Of a stretch of DNA of 64,000 nt, positions 12,041-17,438 are shown piece after piece. The notes under the pieces were generated by a model. The model searched no databases. It saw nothing but the letters and a program-made list of their open reading frames with translations, and had not been told where the DNA came from. Source of the DNA: Halostella litorea (lineage in GTDB: Archaea > Halobacteriota > Halobacteria > Halobacteriales > Natronoarchaeaceae). Each line of letters starts with the position of its first letter. Positions within the stretch are counted from its first letter, which is position 1. Both the position numbers and the translations under genes were made by a program. The DNA lies in assembly GCF_004785955.1 (NCBI RefSeq), contig NZ_SJER01000001.1, forward strand, positions 62,001-126,000. The letters are read 5' to 3'.

Positions 12041-13072
12041 TCAGCGGTCCGGCGGTTCGGCCTCCCGCTCCGCGGCCGCGACCTCAGGGTCGCGCTCCGC
12101 GTCGGCCGGTTCGGCCGGGTCGACCGCGCGTCCGGCGGTTTTCCGACCGGTCTTGCGGTCCGACTCCAGTCGCTGGAGGCGGTGCATCTGGTCGCGGTGG
12201 AGCGTCACGATCATGTCCGAGAGGACGCCGAAGATGATCAACTGGACCCCGAACAGCAGGGCGAACGCGGCGACGACGGCGATGACTTCGTGGCTGATCC
12301 CGCGGGTGATCCACTCGACGCCGACGTACGCCGCGAGCGCGCCGCCGGCGGCGACGCCGGCCGCCCCGACGCTCCCGAAGTAGAACAGGGGGTTGTTCGT
12401 CTTCGCCAGCCGGTACAGCGTCAGGATGATCGTCCCGCCGTCCCACACCGGGTGGAGGTTCGTCTCCGAGTCCTCCGGCCGCGCGAGGTAGCTGATCGGG
12501 ACCTCCGTCATCTCGACGCCGTGTTTCACGCACTCGACGGCCAGTTCCGTCTCGATCCCGAAGCCCTCGGAGTTGAGTCGGAACAGTTCGACCGACTCGC
12601 GGGTGAACGCCCGGTAGCCGCTGAGGATGTCGTAGTTGGACTGCCCGTGGATGAAGTGGAACGCGCGGTCGATGATCCCGTTGCCGAACTGGTTGAGCCG
12701 CGTCATCGCGCCGGCCTCCATGTCGGCGAAGCGGTCGCCGATGACGTGTTCGGCCTCGCCGGCGAACAGGGGGTCGAGCATCGCGGGGGCGTCCTCCGGG
12801 CGGTACGTGCCGTCGCCGTCGAGCATCAGCACGTACTCGCTGTCGACGTACTCCAGTCCCTCCTGGACGGCCTGGCCCTTCCCGGAGCCGGACTGGACGA
12901 CCACGCGAGCGCCGCGAGCCTCGGCTATCTCGCGGGTGTCGTCCGACGAGTCGCCGTCGACGACGAGGACGTTGTCCAGCCCCTGTTCGTGGAACCCGTC
13001 TATCACCTCCCCGATGGTCGCGGCCTCGTTCAGCGTCGGGATCAGGACGCAGACGTCCCCGTAGTCCGCCAT
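12041..13072 (-). CDS. aglJ: AglJ dolichol-phosphate hexosyltransferase (GT2)
   Basis: A 343-residue GT2 glycosyltransferase that adds the first sugar to dolichol phosphate in haloarchaeal N-glycosylation. N-terminal signatures are VCVLIPTLNEAATIGEVIDG and VVDGDSSDDT, then the DxD-type MLDGDGTYRPEDA. A family stretch DILSGYRAFTRES follows, and there are two C-terminal membrane helices (residues about 230-310) that anchor it. The match to Haloferax AglJ is strong by eye, including ETNLHPVWDGG and AKTNNPLFYFG. The C-terminal tail is longer and more charged than usual. The ATG at 13072 is preferred over a GTG five codons upstream. Confidence 0.92.
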   Translation of the reverse strand: MADYGDVCVLIPTLNEAATIGEVIDGFHEQGLDNVLVVDGDSSDDTREIAEARGARVVVQSGSGKGQAVQEGLEYVDSEYVLMLDGDGTYRPEDAPAMLDPLFAGEAEHVIGDRFADMEAGAMTRLNQFGNGIIDRAFHFIHGQSNYDILSGYRAFTRESVELFRLNSEGFGIETELAVECVKHGVEMTEVPISYLARPEDSETNLHPVWDGGTIILTLYRLAKTNNPLFYFGSVGAAGVAAGGALAAYVGVEWITRGISHEVIAVVAAFALLFGVQLIIFGVLSDMIVTLHRDQMHRLQRLESDRKTGRKTAGRAVDPAEPADAERDPEVAAAEREAEPPDR

Positions 13073-13315: not shown

Positions 13316-13336
13316 GTTACTCAGTTAGTGAGTAAC
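13316..13336. promoter_or_regulatory. Palindromic TrmB-type operator, copy 1
   Basis: GTTACTCA-N5-TGAGTAAC, perfect arms of 8 bp. It contains TACT-N8-GAGTA, the known binding pattern of haloarchaeal TrmB. It is 1 nt from the ATG of the small Cys-rich gene (minus strand) and about 110 bp before the TrmB-like gene. Confidence 0.75.
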
Positions 13337-13446
13337 CGAAAGGCGTGGGTCGTGATAAGCTTTTGGGAGCGACGGCGGCTCCGGCGGCCCGCCCCGCGCA
13401 GGGCGCAACGCCCGATTTACGGTGCCGCGCGAGAAAGCGGCCGGCA

Positions 13447-14295
13447 ATGAGCGCGCGCGATCCGACGGACCTCCTCGAACGGCTCGACCTGAAGGAGTAC
13501 GAGGCGACGGCGCTGTCGCACCTGCTGGCGGCCGGGCGCTCCACCGCGCCGGACATCGCCGAGGCGACGGGCATCCCCAAGGCGCGGATCTACGGCGTGC
13601 TGGACACGCTGGCGGACCTGGGGTACATCAAGGTGTACCCGGGCCGCCCTAAGGAGTACGAGCCGAAGTCGCCCGCGACGATCCTCGACCGCGTCAAGGA
13701 GAACCGCCGGCAGGAGTACGAGCGCCGCCGCCGGGAGGTCGAGGACCTGCGCGAGGAGTTCCTCGCGGAGTTCCGCCCGCGCTACGAGCGGGCCGACGAC
13801 GACGTGTCCCCGACCGCGGAGCTGTTCTACGTCGTCGACGTCGGCGACCCCAGCGAGTCCGAGACCCGCAAGCTCTACGCGGACGCCGACGAGCGGGTCA
13901 ACGTCATCACGAACAGCTTCGCCTACTTCGACGCCGTCGAGCCGGCCTTCGCCGACGCCGTCGACCGCGTCGACGTGGACGTGCTCTTTCTCCACCCCCG
14001 CCACCTGCCCGACGAGAAGCGGGAGCGACAGGCGGAGATCGTCGACAGGATCGCCGCCGAGTACCCCGAGGTCGGGATTCGCTTTTCCGAGGAGCGGTTG
14101 CCGTGGCGCGGCACGTTCGCCGACCCGAGCGCGACCTACGACTCGGGGAAGGCGATCTTCCTCGTCGAGGAGCGCGACGTGCCGAACCACAAGCGCCAGG
14201 CCGCCATCACCGAAAACGGGTCGTTCGTCGCGGGGATGCAGCGGTACTTCGACCTCGTGTGGGAACACGAGAGCCTCGCGGAGTACCCGGACTGA
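13447..14295 (+). CDS. TrmB-family transcriptional regulator
   Basis: A 282-residue regulator. Residues 5-80 form the TrmB winged helix (LERLDLKEYEATALSHLLA, TAPDIAEATGIPKARIYGVL, then a DLGYIKVYPGRPKEYEP wing). A coiled linker (residues about 85-120) and a C-terminal phospholipase D-like or ligand domain follow. Haloarchaeal TrmB proteins sense sugar and regulate sugar metabolism genes at TACT-N8-GAGTA. Two such sites flank this gene, one at 13316 before it and one at 14402 at the start of the nucleotide-sugar operon. The ATG at 13447 fits the domain. It may be autoregulated and may control the small gene and the operon. The ligand is unknown. Confidence 0.85.
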   Translation: MSARDPTDLLERLDLKEYEATALSHLLAAGRSTAPDIAEATGIPKARIYGVLDTLADLGYIKVYPGRPKEYEPKSPATILDRVKENRRQEYERRRREVEDLREEFLAEFRPRYERADDDVSPTAELFYVVDVGDPSESETRKLYADADERVNVITNSFAYFDAVEPAFADAVDRVDVDVLFLHPRHLPDEKRERQAEIVDRIAAEYPEVGIRFSEERLPWRGTFADPSATYDSGKAIFLVEERDVPNHKRQAAITENGSFVAGMQRYFDLVWEHESLAEYPD

Positions 14296-14401
14296 GCCGT
14301 CGCTGGGGGGGTCCGCCCGCGCCGCTGCTCGATACCGCCCGTAGCCACAGCGCCGTCGTCAGCCGACCCCTCCCGTTCCGAACAAAAGGCTTATGCCACC
14401 A

Positions 14402-14422
14402 GTTACTCACATTCTGAGTAAC
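14402..14422. promoter_or_regulatory. Palindromic TrmB-type operator, copy 2
   Basis: GTTACTCA-N5-TGAGTAAC, the same arms as copy 1, ending 1 nt before the ATG at 14424. It overlaps the expected start of a leaderless transcript, so bound protein would block transcription of the sugar operon. A TATA-like box (aaaaggcttatg) lies just upstream. Confidence 0.8.
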
Positions 14423-14423
14423 T

Positions 14424-15563
14424 ATGACGGTTCTCGTCACCGGTGCCGACGGCTACGTCGGCTGGCCGACCGCTCTGCGACTGGCGCGGCGACTCGACGA
14501 GCGGGTCGTCGGCGTGGACAACCTCGCGCGGCGCGACTGGGTGGAGGACGCGGGCAGCGTCTCCGCCGTCCCGGTCGACGACCCCGAGATGCGGTTCGCG
14601 GTGGAACCGAACCTGAGCTTCGTGTACGCCGACCTCGCCGACCGCGACGAGGTACAGCGGCTGCTCGACGTCCACGAGCCCCACACCGTCGTCCACGCGG
14701 CGGCCCAGCCCAGCGCGCCGTACTCGCAGATAAACGGCGAGCGCGCGCTGTACACCCAGCGCAACAACCTCTCGATGAACGTCAACCTGCTCCACGGGCT
14801 GAAAGACGCCGGGCTGGAGGACACACACTTCATCGAGACGACGACGACGGGCGTCTACGGCGCGCCCGAGTTCCCGATCCCCGAGGGCGGCGCGACGATG
14901 GAGAACCAGGGCGAGCGCGACGACGTGCCGTTCCCGGCGATGGGCGGTTCCTGGTACCACGTCACCAAGTCCTTCGACAACGCGAACGCGCGACTGGCGA
15001 ACACGCAGTGGGGCCAGCCGGTCAGCGACCTCCGGACCGCCATCGTGTACGGCACCGAGACCGCGGAGACGGAGGAACTGGAACTCCCGACGCGGTTCGA
15101 CTTCGACTACTACTTCGGCACGGTCGTCAACCGCTTCTGCGCGCAGGCGGTCGCGGGCTACCCGCTCACCGTCTACGGCAAGGGCGAGCAGCGCAAGCCG
15201 ATGGTCGGCCTCCGCGACACCGTCGAGAGCATCGCGACGCTGGTCGAGGACGGCCACGCCGGCGACGGCGTCGAGGTGTACAACCAAGTGACCCGCCCGG
15301 TCGCCATCGTCGAACTCGCCGAGACGATACAGGCGGTCGGCGAGGAGTTCGACCTCGACGTCGAGATCACCCACGTCGAGAACCCCCGCGAGGAGGACGA
15401 GGAGCACAAGATGGAGATGGAAAACGAGGAGTTCGCGGACCTGGTCGGCGAACCGCAGTCCCTGGAGGCGGGCGTCCGCGACGTACTGACGACGCTGACC
15501 CGCCACCGCGACCGCATCACCGCCCGCGAGGACCGCTTCCTGCCGGAGGTGTTGCTCGATTAA
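14424..15563 (+). CDS. sqdB: UDP-sulfoquinovose synthase-like SDR (SqdB/Agl3 family)
   Basis: A 379-residue extended SDR. The Rossmann motif VTGADGYVGWP is at the N-terminus and the YxxxK pair is SWYHVTKS. The region AAAQPSAPYSQINGERALYT followed by TTTGVYGAPEFPI matches plant SQD1 and archaeal Agl3, which make UDP-sulfoquinovose from UDP-glucose and sulfite. VVNRFCAQAVAGYPLTVYGK also aligns with SQD1 by memory. The product could be used for a sulfonated surface glycan or a sulfolipid. It is the first gene of a tightly packed operon and has a TrmB-type operator directly before the ATG. The exact substrate is inferred from homology. Confidence 0.75.
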   Translation: MTVLVTGADGYVGWPTALRLARRLDERVVGVDNLARRDWVEDAGSVSAVPVDDPEMRFAVEPNLSFVYADLADRDEVQRLLDVHEPHTVVHAAAQPSAPYSQINGERALYTQRNNLSMNVNLLHGLKDAGLEDTHFIETTTTGVYGAPEFPIPEGGATMENQGERDDVPFPAMGGSWYHVTKSFDNANARLANTQWGQPVSDLRTAIVYGTETAETEELELPTRFDFDYYFGTVVNRFCAQAVAGYPLTVYGKGEQRKPMVGLRDTVESIATLVEDGHAGDGVEVYNQVTRPVAIVELAETIQAVGEEFDLDVEITHVENPREEDEEHKMEMENEEFADLVGEPQSLEAGVRDVLTTLTRHRDRITAREDRFLPEVLLD

Positions 15564-16485
15564 CGTCCTCGTCACCGGGGGCGCGGGCTACGTCGGCAGC
15601 GCCCTCCTGCCAGTGCTTTCCGACGCGAGCCACGACGTCCGCGTGCTCGACGACTTCTCGCTGTCGTCGCCCCGCAACCTCGTCGACGCCCCGCCCGTGG
15701 ACTTCGTCCGCGGCGACGTGCGCGACGAGGCCGTCGTCCGGGAGGCGATGGAAAACGTCGACGCCGTGGTCCACCTCGCAGCGATCACGGGCGCGGCCAA
15801 GACCCACGACATCCCCGAGAAGACGTTCGACGTGAACCTCAGCGGCACTGAGACGGTACTGTCGGCGGCCGAGGACGAGGGCGTCGACCGGGTCGTGCTC
15901 GCCAGCTCCTGTAACGTGTACGGCGAGACCTACGAGACCGACCTGAGCGAGGACTCGCCGACGGACCCCGGCAACCCCTACGCCGAATCGAAGCTCGCCG
16001 CCGAGGAGGCCTGCGTCGACGCCGACGTGGAGGCGGTCGCGCTCCGGCTGGCGACCAACTACGGCTGGAGCCCTGGCGTCCGGTTCAACCTCGTCGTCAA
16101 TTCCTTCGCGTTCCGCGCGGTGATGGACGAGCCGCTGACCGTCTACGGCGACGGCCGGAACTGGCGGCCGTTCCTCCACGTGCGGGACACGGCCCGCGCG
16201 TTCGCCGCGGCGCTGGACTGGCCGGAGGGCCGGTACAACGTCGGCGAGGACAACTACCGCATCGAGGACGTCGCCGCGACGGTCGCCGAGGTCGTCGGCA
16301 AGCCCGTCGAGACGGACTACCTCGAGGACGAGGACCCCGGCCCCTCCTACAGCGTCACGTTCGAGCGGATGGCCGACCGCGGCTTCGAGCCCGAGTTCTC
16401 GCTCCGGGAGGGCGTCCGCGACCTGACCGACAGATTCGCCGCGGGCGAACGCCTTTCAGACTCCGCGATGAGAGGACGTACATGA
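15559..16485 (+). CDS. NAD-dependent sugar epimerase/dehydratase (SDR), non-canonical start
   Basis: A roughly 308-residue extended SDR. The Rossmann signature NVLVTGGAGYVGSALLP begins at 15562 and must belong to the protein, but no ATG, GTG or TTG precedes it in the open frame. The only standard in-frame start is GTG at 15613, which would remove the NAD-binding motif. An ATT at 15559 overlaps the previous stop (gattaac) and is the best structural start. The active-site set SSCNVYG and NPYAESK is intact. The family makes sugars by 4-epimerisation or 4,6-dehydration; the substrate is unknown. A sequencing error at the junction is also possible. Confidence 0.75.
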   Translation: MNVLVTGGAGYVGSALLPVLSDASHDVRVLDDFSLSSPRNLVDAPPVDFVRGDVRDEAVVREAMENVDAVVHLAAITGAAKTHDIPEKTFDVNLSGTETVLSAAEDEGVDRVVLASSCNVYGETYETDLSEDSPTDPGNPYAESKLAAEEACVDADVEAVALRLATNYGWSPGVRFNLVVNSFAFRAVMDEPLTVYGDGRNWRPFLHVRDTARAFAAALDWPEGRYNVGEDNYRIEDVAATVAEVVGKPVETDYLEDEDPGPSYSVTFERMADRGFEPEFSLREGVRDLTDRFAAGERLSDSAMRGRT

Positions 16486-17438
16486 CAACGGACATGACGG
16501 AAACGCACACCGTAGGCGTGACCGGGGCCGCCGGCTACATCGGCTCCCGCGTCGCGAAGGTCCTCCTTGCCGAGGGCCACGACGTGGTGCCGGTCGACGA
16601 CTTCTCGGTCGGGGACGTACGGGAGATAGACGGCCGCCGCGTCGAGGAGGTCGACGTGCGCGACCGCGACGCCGTCCGCGAGGCGTTCGACGGCGTCGAC
16701 GCCGTGATGCACCTCGGCGCGGTGAGCGGCGTCCCGGACTGTCAGGAGAATCCGGAACACGCGTTCGACGTGAACGTCGGCGGCACGGAGAACGTCGCCT
16801 GGTTCTGCCGCGAGCGGGGGACGCCGCTGGTGTTCCCCTGCAGCATGGCGGTGCTCGGCGACCCCGTCGAGTTCCCAATCACCGCGGACCACCCGCGGAA
16901 CCCGCTGAACTTCTACGGCCGGAGCAAGGCGCTTTCCGAGGACGACGTCCACCAGCTAGCCGACGGGGAGTTCCCCGCCCACGTGTACGTGAAGTCGAAC
17001 CTGTACGGCCACCACGAACTTGACGGACGAGAGATAGGAAAGAACACGGTGATAAACATCTTCGTCGACAAGGCGCTGGACGGGGAGCCCCTGACCGTCC
17101 ACGAGCCAGGGACGCAGGCGCGGGACTTCATCCACGTCAAGGACGTGGCCCGCGCCTACGCGCTCTCGCTGGACGAACTCGTCGGGAGCGACCCCGGCGC
17201 GACGACGTTCACGCTTGCCAGCGGCGACGACCGGAGCATCCTCGACATCGCCGAGGCCGTCCAGTCGATCGTCGCGGATGAGCGCGGGTACGAGGTACCG
17301 ATAGAGATGGTCGAGAACCCCCGCGAGAGCGAGACCGAGGTCGGCGACTTCACCGTCGACACCTCGGAGGCCAGAGCGGAGATCGGCTTCGAGGCGGAGT
17401 ACGACGTGGACCGCGCGGTCCGGGAGATGGTGCGATGA
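16482..17438 (+). CDS. NAD-dependent sugar epimerase/dehydratase (SDR)
   Basis: A 318-residue extended SDR. VTGAAGYIGSRVAKVLLA is the NAD-binding motif. The YxxxK pair is NFYGRSKA, and PCSMAVLGD replaces the more common SS-x-VYG. The end shows the typical RDFIHVKDVARAYALSL and DVDRAVREM regions. The ATG at 16482 overlaps the previous stop as ATGA, so it is translated with the neighbour. It is the third SDR in a row; together they could turn one UDP-sugar into a modified hexose. The substrate is unknown. Confidence 0.8.
   Translation: MTTDMTETHTVGVTGAAGYIGSRVAKVLLAEGHDVVPVDDFSVGDVREIDGRRVEEVDVRDRDAVREAFDGVDAVMHLGAVSGVPDCQENPEHAFDVNVGGTENVAWFCRERGTPLVFPCSMAVLGDPVEFPITADHPRNPLNFYGRSKALSEDDVHQLADGEFPAHVYVKSNLYGHHELDGREIGKNTVINIFVDKALDGEPLTVHEPGTQARDFIHVKDVARAYALSLDELVGSDPGATTFTLASGDDRSILDIAEAVQSIVADERGYEVPIEMVENPRESETEVGDFTVDTSEARAEIGFEAEYDVDRAVREMVR

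Follow-up and report, generated by a model that had tools for sequence, protein, structure and literature searches.

A short TrmB-family protein and its putative twin operators at a predicted sulfosugar operon and a microprotein gene of Halobacteria

Two identical-armed palindromes in Halostella litorea, one at a predicted sulfosugar operon and the other at the gene of a small acidic protein, most probably form a one-regulator, two-operator switch, in which a local TrmB-family repressor is dedicated to the sulfoquinovose operon and to a partner microprotein. The regulator (P0001) is short, lacks the known sugar site of the family and, judging from the comparison of genomes, would be devoted to these two targets. 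The same comparison supports the sites themselves, their near-exclusive use at two gene families and their co-inheritance with the regulator. The features of the locus are listed in Table 1, with positions in the window, i.e. the whole stretch of 64,000 nucleotides that was analyzed.

Table 1 Features of the regulator locus in the window
Feature	Position	Strand	Remarks
Putative operator O1, GTTACTCA-GTTAG-TGAGTAAC	13316..13336		1 nt before ATG of the small-protein gene (minus strand)
Putative operator O2, GTTACTCA-CATTC-TGAGTAAC	14402..14422		1 nt before ATG of the sqdB-like gene (plus strand)
TrmB-family regulator, 282 aa (P0001)	13447..14295	+	PF01978, AlphaFold model, structure match to TrmBL2
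TATA-like GCTTATG	14389..14395	+	just upstream of O2, by reading
TATA-like GCTTATC	13354..13360	-	upstream of O1 on the minus strand, by reading
Small acidic protein, 44 aa	13180..13314	-	motif HL-DV-DG[CA]GCTEIWEHLSE-R
sqdB-like UDP-sulfoquinovose synthase-like SDR enzyme, 379 aa	14424..15563	+	first gene of the presumed operon
NDP-sugar epimerase (GalE-like) 1	15560..16485	+	presumed operon; the listed ORF starts at GTG 15613
NDP-sugar epimerase (GalE-like) 2	16482..17438	+	presumed operon
AglJ-like glycosyltransferase	12041..13072	-	TIGR04182, 455.7 bits (cut-off 325)

Both 21-bp sites are exact, perfect palindromes of the form GTTACTCA-N5-TGAGTAAC. As the sequence-only reading had described, each lies 1 nt from an ATG, at 13314-13312 on the minus strand for O1 and at 14424-14426 on the plus strand for O2. 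With up to three mismatches allowed they are the sole matches in the window; shuffled versions of the window (n = 100) gave a mean of 0.07 matches at this threshold, and two sites in none of the 100. The genome scan that the same reading had called for found TTACTCA-N5-TGAGTAA exactly only at O1 and O2 in the whole genome (3,745,232 bases in 13 contigs), along with two further sites carrying 2 mismatches each. Exactly two copies, spaced 1.06-1.23 kb apart, were found in all five genomes of the genus that were searched, H. litorea included, and the palindrome was absent from all four genomes searched in the rest of the family. Both sites read TACT-N8-GAGTA, in agreement with the published core TACT-N7-8-GAGTA of the Halobacterium salinarum TrmB operator (PMC4158304), which bears out the recognition of this string as a TrmB motif.

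To place the palindrome in the class, 292 genomes drawn evenly from a larger group were compared. An ortholog of the regulator was found in 99 of them by a protein search in which at most 8 candidates were scored per genome, so that an ortholog may have been missed; the weakest ortholog has an E-value of 2.7e-76, against 3.9e-20 for the best hit among the rest. The exact palindrome, searched for as GTTACTC-N7-GAGTAAC (14 fixed letters, arm letters 1-7 thus being fixed by construction), occurs in 82 of the 292 genomes with 1-3 exact sites in each, and the reversed control pattern was not among the matches listed. All 82 of these genomes have a regulator ortholog and none of the 193 ortholog-less genomes has the palindrome (Fisher 5.4e-56, which is indicative only because the genomes are related); like all co-occurrence counts given here, these come from non-independent samples. 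In the 12 genera that have exact sites and are mixed, with some genomes carrying the regulator and others lacking it, the palindrome is present in 23 of 23 regulator genomes and in none of the 77 others, and 5 further mixed genera contain 8 regulator genomes and no exact copies, a comparison that omits two genera of the latter kind (g7, with G101, and g37, with G234). An sqdB-like gene accompanies the regulator in 98 of 99 genomes and is found in 13 of the 193 others. Comparative genomics thus supports, far more strongly than a single window could, the proposal that O1 and O2 are putative twin operators of the local TrmB-family protein.

The palindromes are concentrated at two gene families. 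Among the 134 listed, 72 lie 1-4 nt upstream of sqdB-like starts, one per genome (1 nt in 35 cases, 2 nt in 29, 3 nt in 2 and 4 nt in 6), and an additional one outside the 134 lies 1 nt before the sqdB-like gene of G237 (locus L093). The sites sit on a nucleotide-sugar operon, the kind of target that the sequence-only reading had expected. Starts of the small-gene family account for another 58, of which 54 were found by script and those of G162:C18, G159:C15, G201:C2 and the second G150 site by reading; the script-found sites lie 1 nt (22) or 0 nt (12) from the start codon or overlap it (20). Four of the 134 palindromes are at neither gene family, which counts against a dedicated switch.

In the 20 overlapping sites (e.g. 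L084:5837-5857) the right arm TGAGTAAC falls within the first codons ATG-AGT-AAC (Met-Ser-Asn), once GTG-AGT-AAC, and the second G150 site overlaps likewise. The palindrome of G141 is located 42 nt before an ORF that resembles a sugar nucleotidyltransferase by eye. Another, at G257:C3:38323 (L180), is separated by 4 nt from the ATG of an unassigned ORF, which may represent a third target family. Two palindromes of one genus, at G162:C37:48663 (L178) and G159:C9:520222 (L066), have no clear target and a common TATA-like stretch just upstream.

Imperfect sites serve as a check on the arm letters that the exact-pattern search had fixed. Where a regulator genome has no exact palindrome at its sqdB-like gene (25 genes), an imperfect one with 13-15 of the 16 arm letters is always present, its first letter 20-27 nt ahead of the start codon. 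When the 73 exact copies are added, all 98 genomes have a site at the sqdB-like gene; one such gene was counted per genome, the second copies of G279 and G101 being set aside. A comparable site was found at one of the 13 sqdB-like genes of regulator-less genomes, that of G092, and remnants of 11 of the 16 arm letters at the same sqdB position in G007 and G222, both regulator-less. Among 455 other called genes of 40 regulator loci, two reach at least 13 arm letters near the start; the first (L099) proved to be an sqdB-like gene placed in the wrong cluster, the second (L109) a regulator gene that is divergent from sqdB and shares its site. Since both were traced to sqdB operators, no unrelated gene in the 455-gene set has such a site. 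The sqdB-like operon of G092 (L206, L221) has a 15-of-16 site in a genome where the ortholog was not detected, which also counts against a dedicated switch.

The gene between the two sites had been assigned to the TrmB family, and the assignment stands: residues 10-76 of P0001 match the winged HTH domain PF01978 at 64.8 bits (cut-off 25.6). The AlphaFold model (pLDDT 89.9, pTM 0.57) comprises a winged HTH, a long helix (residues 76-117) and a PLD-like alpha/beta domain, so that the predicted fold is that of the TrmB family along the whole chain. The closest structures over this length are those of Pyrococcus TrmBL2 (5box, 5bpd), with HTH, long helix and PLD-like domain in a chain of about 264 aa compared to 282 aa in P0001. 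The alignment with 5box (Foldseek E 1.7e-17; Z 17.1 over 252 residues) has an rmsd of 20.1, so domain orientation differs from that of the P0001 model; TrmB (3qph) was matched at a Foldseek E of 7.8e-11. TrmBL2 is a chromatin protein according to the PDB titles, whereas the local regulator has 1-3 specific exact sites per genome. P0001 scores far below the cut-offs of all the NCBIfam TrmB equivalogs (TrmBL1, 56.5 of 650 bits; TrmBHalo, 38.1 of 500; TrmBL2, 36.2 of 530; TrmB, 32.4 of 600). Second regulator copies at G279:C1:1221713-1222531 and G101:C55:53117-53948 are apparently degraded, with internal stops or split in two.

The description of the switch as sugar-responsive was not supported. 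The sugar-binding domain PF11495 has no match in P0001 at E-values up to 10, and of two orthologs scanned one matches at 17.9 bits, below the cut-off of 22.2. The TrmB sugar-binding domain structure 2f5t aligns with P0001 only at its residues 110-242, the PLD-like part (Z 14.3, 127 residues, rmsd 2.6), and the published TrmB sugar contacts N305, G320 and E326 (PMC10817205) fall beyond this stretch, in a C-terminal part that P0001 does not have. A sugar ligand consequently does not follow from homology. Invariant residues of the PLD-like domain include R212, P219, R221, G222, D226, P227, Y231, G234 and N257 and could form a pocket for a non-sugar ligand. Thiol sensing, known from one TrmB-family regulator (PMC9426492), was rejected for this one: P0001 has no Cys, nor have 21 of 34 aligned sequences, P0001 included.

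The position of the palindromes within the promoters suggests how such a regulator may act. An AT-rich, TATA-like peak precedes the palindrome by 10-16 nt in the sqdB-like promoters (44 distinct) and by 18-22 nt in the small-gene promoters (56 distinct). If transcription starts about 26 nt from TATA (PMC4158304, PMC10817205), the start would fall within the palindrome. For TrmBL1, Tgr and VNG1451C, sites located downstream of TATA go with repression (PMC4158304), and repression is thus the likely mode at O1 and O2 as well. The scheme that we infer, from binding and dimerisation through repression rather than activation to the ligand and the pathway product, is as follows. At two promoters the TrmB-family protein, presumably as a dimer, would bind the 21-bp palindrome, which closely follows the TATA-like element and spans the position where transcription is expected to start. 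The transcription machinery would thereby be blocked, leaving the sqdB-epimerase-epimerase operon of the UDP-sulfoquinovose pathway and the microprotein gene repressed, until the PLD-like domain binds a ligand, perhaps a metabolite of the pathway, and the regulator is released. At four loci (L075, L079, L081 and L110) the regulator gene comes after the sqdB and epimerase genes in the same orientation, an arrangement that would give negative feedback.

The same regulator and operators might instead serve activation, or the sign of regulation might switch with the ligand. Whether a TrmB protein activates or represses depends on where its site lies (PMC4158304), TrmB of Har. hispanica is mainly an activator (PMC10817205), and O1, whose end lies 110 nt upstream of the regulator's own ATG, could affect the regulator itself differently. 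In both gene families, however, the sites follow the TATA-like peak and span the expected start, which is the published repressor position, and we consider activation unlikely. One target of Har. hispanica TrmB is regulated in a direction that breaks the position rule (PMC10817205), so repression is not certain. A further possibility is that the palindromes act as RNA or DNA hairpins near the start codon, in control of translation, rather than as protein sites. Such a role would suit inverted repeats that are perfect, lie within 0-4 nt of a start codon and in some genomes overlap it. Yet many imperfect copies have their symmetry broken in one arm while most letters are kept, the arm letters of the exact set being fixed by construction; the palindrome is co-inherited with one DNA-binding protein, and transcription is expected to start within the repeat. 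A hairpin is hardly credible.

It is also very improbable that the palindromes belong to the global haloarchaeal TrmB (VNG1451C type), with the local TrmB-like gene as a bystander. The global protein has a published core, TACT-N7-8-GAGTA, in common with the palindromes (PMC4158304), its N-terminal region in G187 is 30% identical to that of P0001 over 124 aa, and the H. litorea genome carries it. Its distribution is nevertheless unrelated to that of the palindrome: global TrmB (NF047392) is encoded in 249 of the 292 genomes, 181 of them without an exact palindrome, and the palindrome genomes comprise 68 with and 14 without it (Fisher p 0.47). The palindrome follows the local ortholog instead (82 of 82 genomes vs. 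0 of 193), so it tracks the local protein despite the common core and HTH, and the global TrmB was rejected as owner on these grounds. A dedicated local repressor is the reading retained below.

The label sqdB-like, which the sequence-only reading had used, was upheld with respect to homology and not with respect to full synthase identity. The best solved-structure matches of the protein are SQD1 (1qrr, 1i24; 241 bits, residues 3-369), and the homology is full-length, with alignment of the YHxxK and TxGxYG stretches, which we take to hold the catalytic residues. Against NF041015 (UDP-sulfoquinovose synthase) it scores 347.4 bits, below the cut-off of 575, and the qualifier "like" is kept for that reason. 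Its predicted activity is synthesis of UDP-sulfoquinovose from UDP-glucose and sulfite. The sqdB-like and epimerase genes presumably form a single transcript, as their spacing suggests. No ATG, GTG or TTG could be read at the N-terminal motif of the first GalE-like gene (15556-15575); by reading, the motif begins at an ATT that overlaps the sqdB-like stop codon, a junction that recurs in two other Halostella loci (L008, L009). The sqdB-like gene at L099:8825-11089 (G242) is a 754-aa frame in which the homologous parts are about 930 nt apart, as if by an in-frame insert.

The locus continues with two genes of the sugar nucleotidyltransferase-like type (TIGR03992) and with an ORF judged GlmS-like by eye. 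The AglJ-like gene, which has the orientation of the small gene and is located downstream of it, is a possible read-through target. Neighbours of this kind, AglJ here and AglB-like and AglG-like genes in some genomes, make a general connection to glycans plausible. Sulfoquinovose occurs in the N-glycans of Har. hispanica, but nothing in the present argument depends on this. Genes for AglB-like (TIGR04154), AglG-like and polyprenyl-phosphate transporter-like proteins were seen in the regulator neighbourhood at L080, L102 and L103, the families being assigned on proteins of L102 and L103 and extended to L080 by the same clusters. A sulfatase-like gene (L072:6909-8276) is present in the fetched regulator neighbourhood of 7 of 40 loci (cluster c10: L075, L076, L083, L087, L107 and L109, plus L072); the assignment was made on L072 only, where the arylsulfatase model gives 134.7 bits (cut-off 481).

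The small protein has no Pfam match, and its structure prediction shows a helix at residues 28-43 (pLDDT 76.7). Its gene had been called Cys-rich. Three Cys are indeed present, but they are not the conserved feature: in 29 aligned sequences the invariant residues are D24, G25, G27, C28, W32 and R39, with Cys28 the only invariant Cys, whereas the first Cys position of the CGC motif can also be occupied by Ala. In three additional sequences outside this alignment the Trp is replaced by Met or Ala. A zinc-finger reading was rejected, there being one invariant Cys only. With members in 276 of 292 genomes, the family extends well beyond the operator-linked copy. In 8 of the 13 regulator-less genomes with sqdB the small gene adjoins sqdB; in most of the other five loci the inspected stretch was the roughly 600 nt upstream. 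The link between the two genes is hence more than regulatory, which argues for a small protein that may act in the pathway and not in regulation alone.

Small-protein paralogs adjoin DUF7119 genes in the three loci tested (L166, L151 and L155). A 32-41-aa ORF with the string ADVAPELYE directly precedes them in L166, L151, L153 and L171, and the end of such an ORF is also present in L168. An FrhB/FdhB-like gene (L167:42-1475; F420 hydrogenase beta-like and iron-sulfur domains) precedes another paralog. These neighbours of the widespread paralogs gave nothing firm on the function of the small protein, and a search for its motif peptide in the open-licence literature found none. A bolder proposal, which we put forward tentatively and with low confidence, is that the microprotein is a dedicated partner of UDP-sulfoquinovose synthase, e.g. 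for delivery or gating of the sulfur donor via the invariant Cys, and that the TrmB-like protein is at the same time a dedicated sensor of the sulfosugar pathway. If so, the latter would be the first named dedicated sensor of an archaeal sulfosugar pathway.

The local regulator has the same TrmB-type winged HTH as the TrmB proteins of H. salinarum (VNG1451C) and Har. hispanica. Those are global regulators that carry PF11495 and have numerous targets, more than 110 promoters in the case of H. salinarum (PMC4245038), and the NCBIfam model of this type has 349 positions; in contrast, the local protein has 282 aa, no match to PF11495, and 1-3 exact sites per genome. The TGM of Thermococcales TrmBL1/Tgr (TATCAC-N5-GTGATA) likewise has palindromic arms and a 5-bp spacer, but it differs in its letters, and TrmBL1/Tgr serve a glycolysis/gluconeogenesis regulon with sugar inducers. 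For H. salinarum TrmB, a role in securing monosaccharides for glycosylation of the S-layer has been proposed (PMC4245038), and in the available passages of that review it is this global protein, not the local regulator, that connects TrmB with S-layer glycosylation.

With regard to the target genes, an operon of Haloquadratum walsbyi has the same gene set, a UDP-sulfoquinovose synthase and two GalE homologs, for which sulfolipid synthesis was proposed and phosphate limitation hinted (PMC1544339). The available portion of that account names neither a regulator, an operator nor the small partner gene. Agl3 of Sulfolobus acidocaldarius and plant SQD1 belong to the same sqdB-like enzyme family; in its available passages on Agl3, the S-layer review mentions neither a local TrmB-type regulator nor a partner microprotein (PMC4245038). 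The same source reports sulfoquinovose in the S-layer N-glycans of Sulfolobus, as well as a sulfoquinovose glycan in Hfx. volcanii, said to be without an Agl3 homolog (PMC4245038), so the sqdB route may not be the sole one. In the open-licence literature, TrmB and sulfoquinovose were found together only in this review, whose available text on them concerns H. salinarum TrmB or the glycans of Sulfolobus or Hfx. volcanii, not a local regulator; nor is the available TrmB text of PMC13286277 about it. No report of a regulator or operator of SqdB-GalE-GalE was found in the open-licence literature, on which our claims of novelty are based.

The observation of two sites thereby becomes a testable regulon that is present in 99 of the 292 Halobacteria genomes sampled, about a third, and that consists of one short TrmB-family regulator, one operator and two target gene families. 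Archaeal sulfoquinovose synthesis would gain a dedicated regulator, and the TrmB family a branch in which the core motif is kept and the known sugar site is missing. The microprotein can be named as a likely partner of the sulfosugar pathway.
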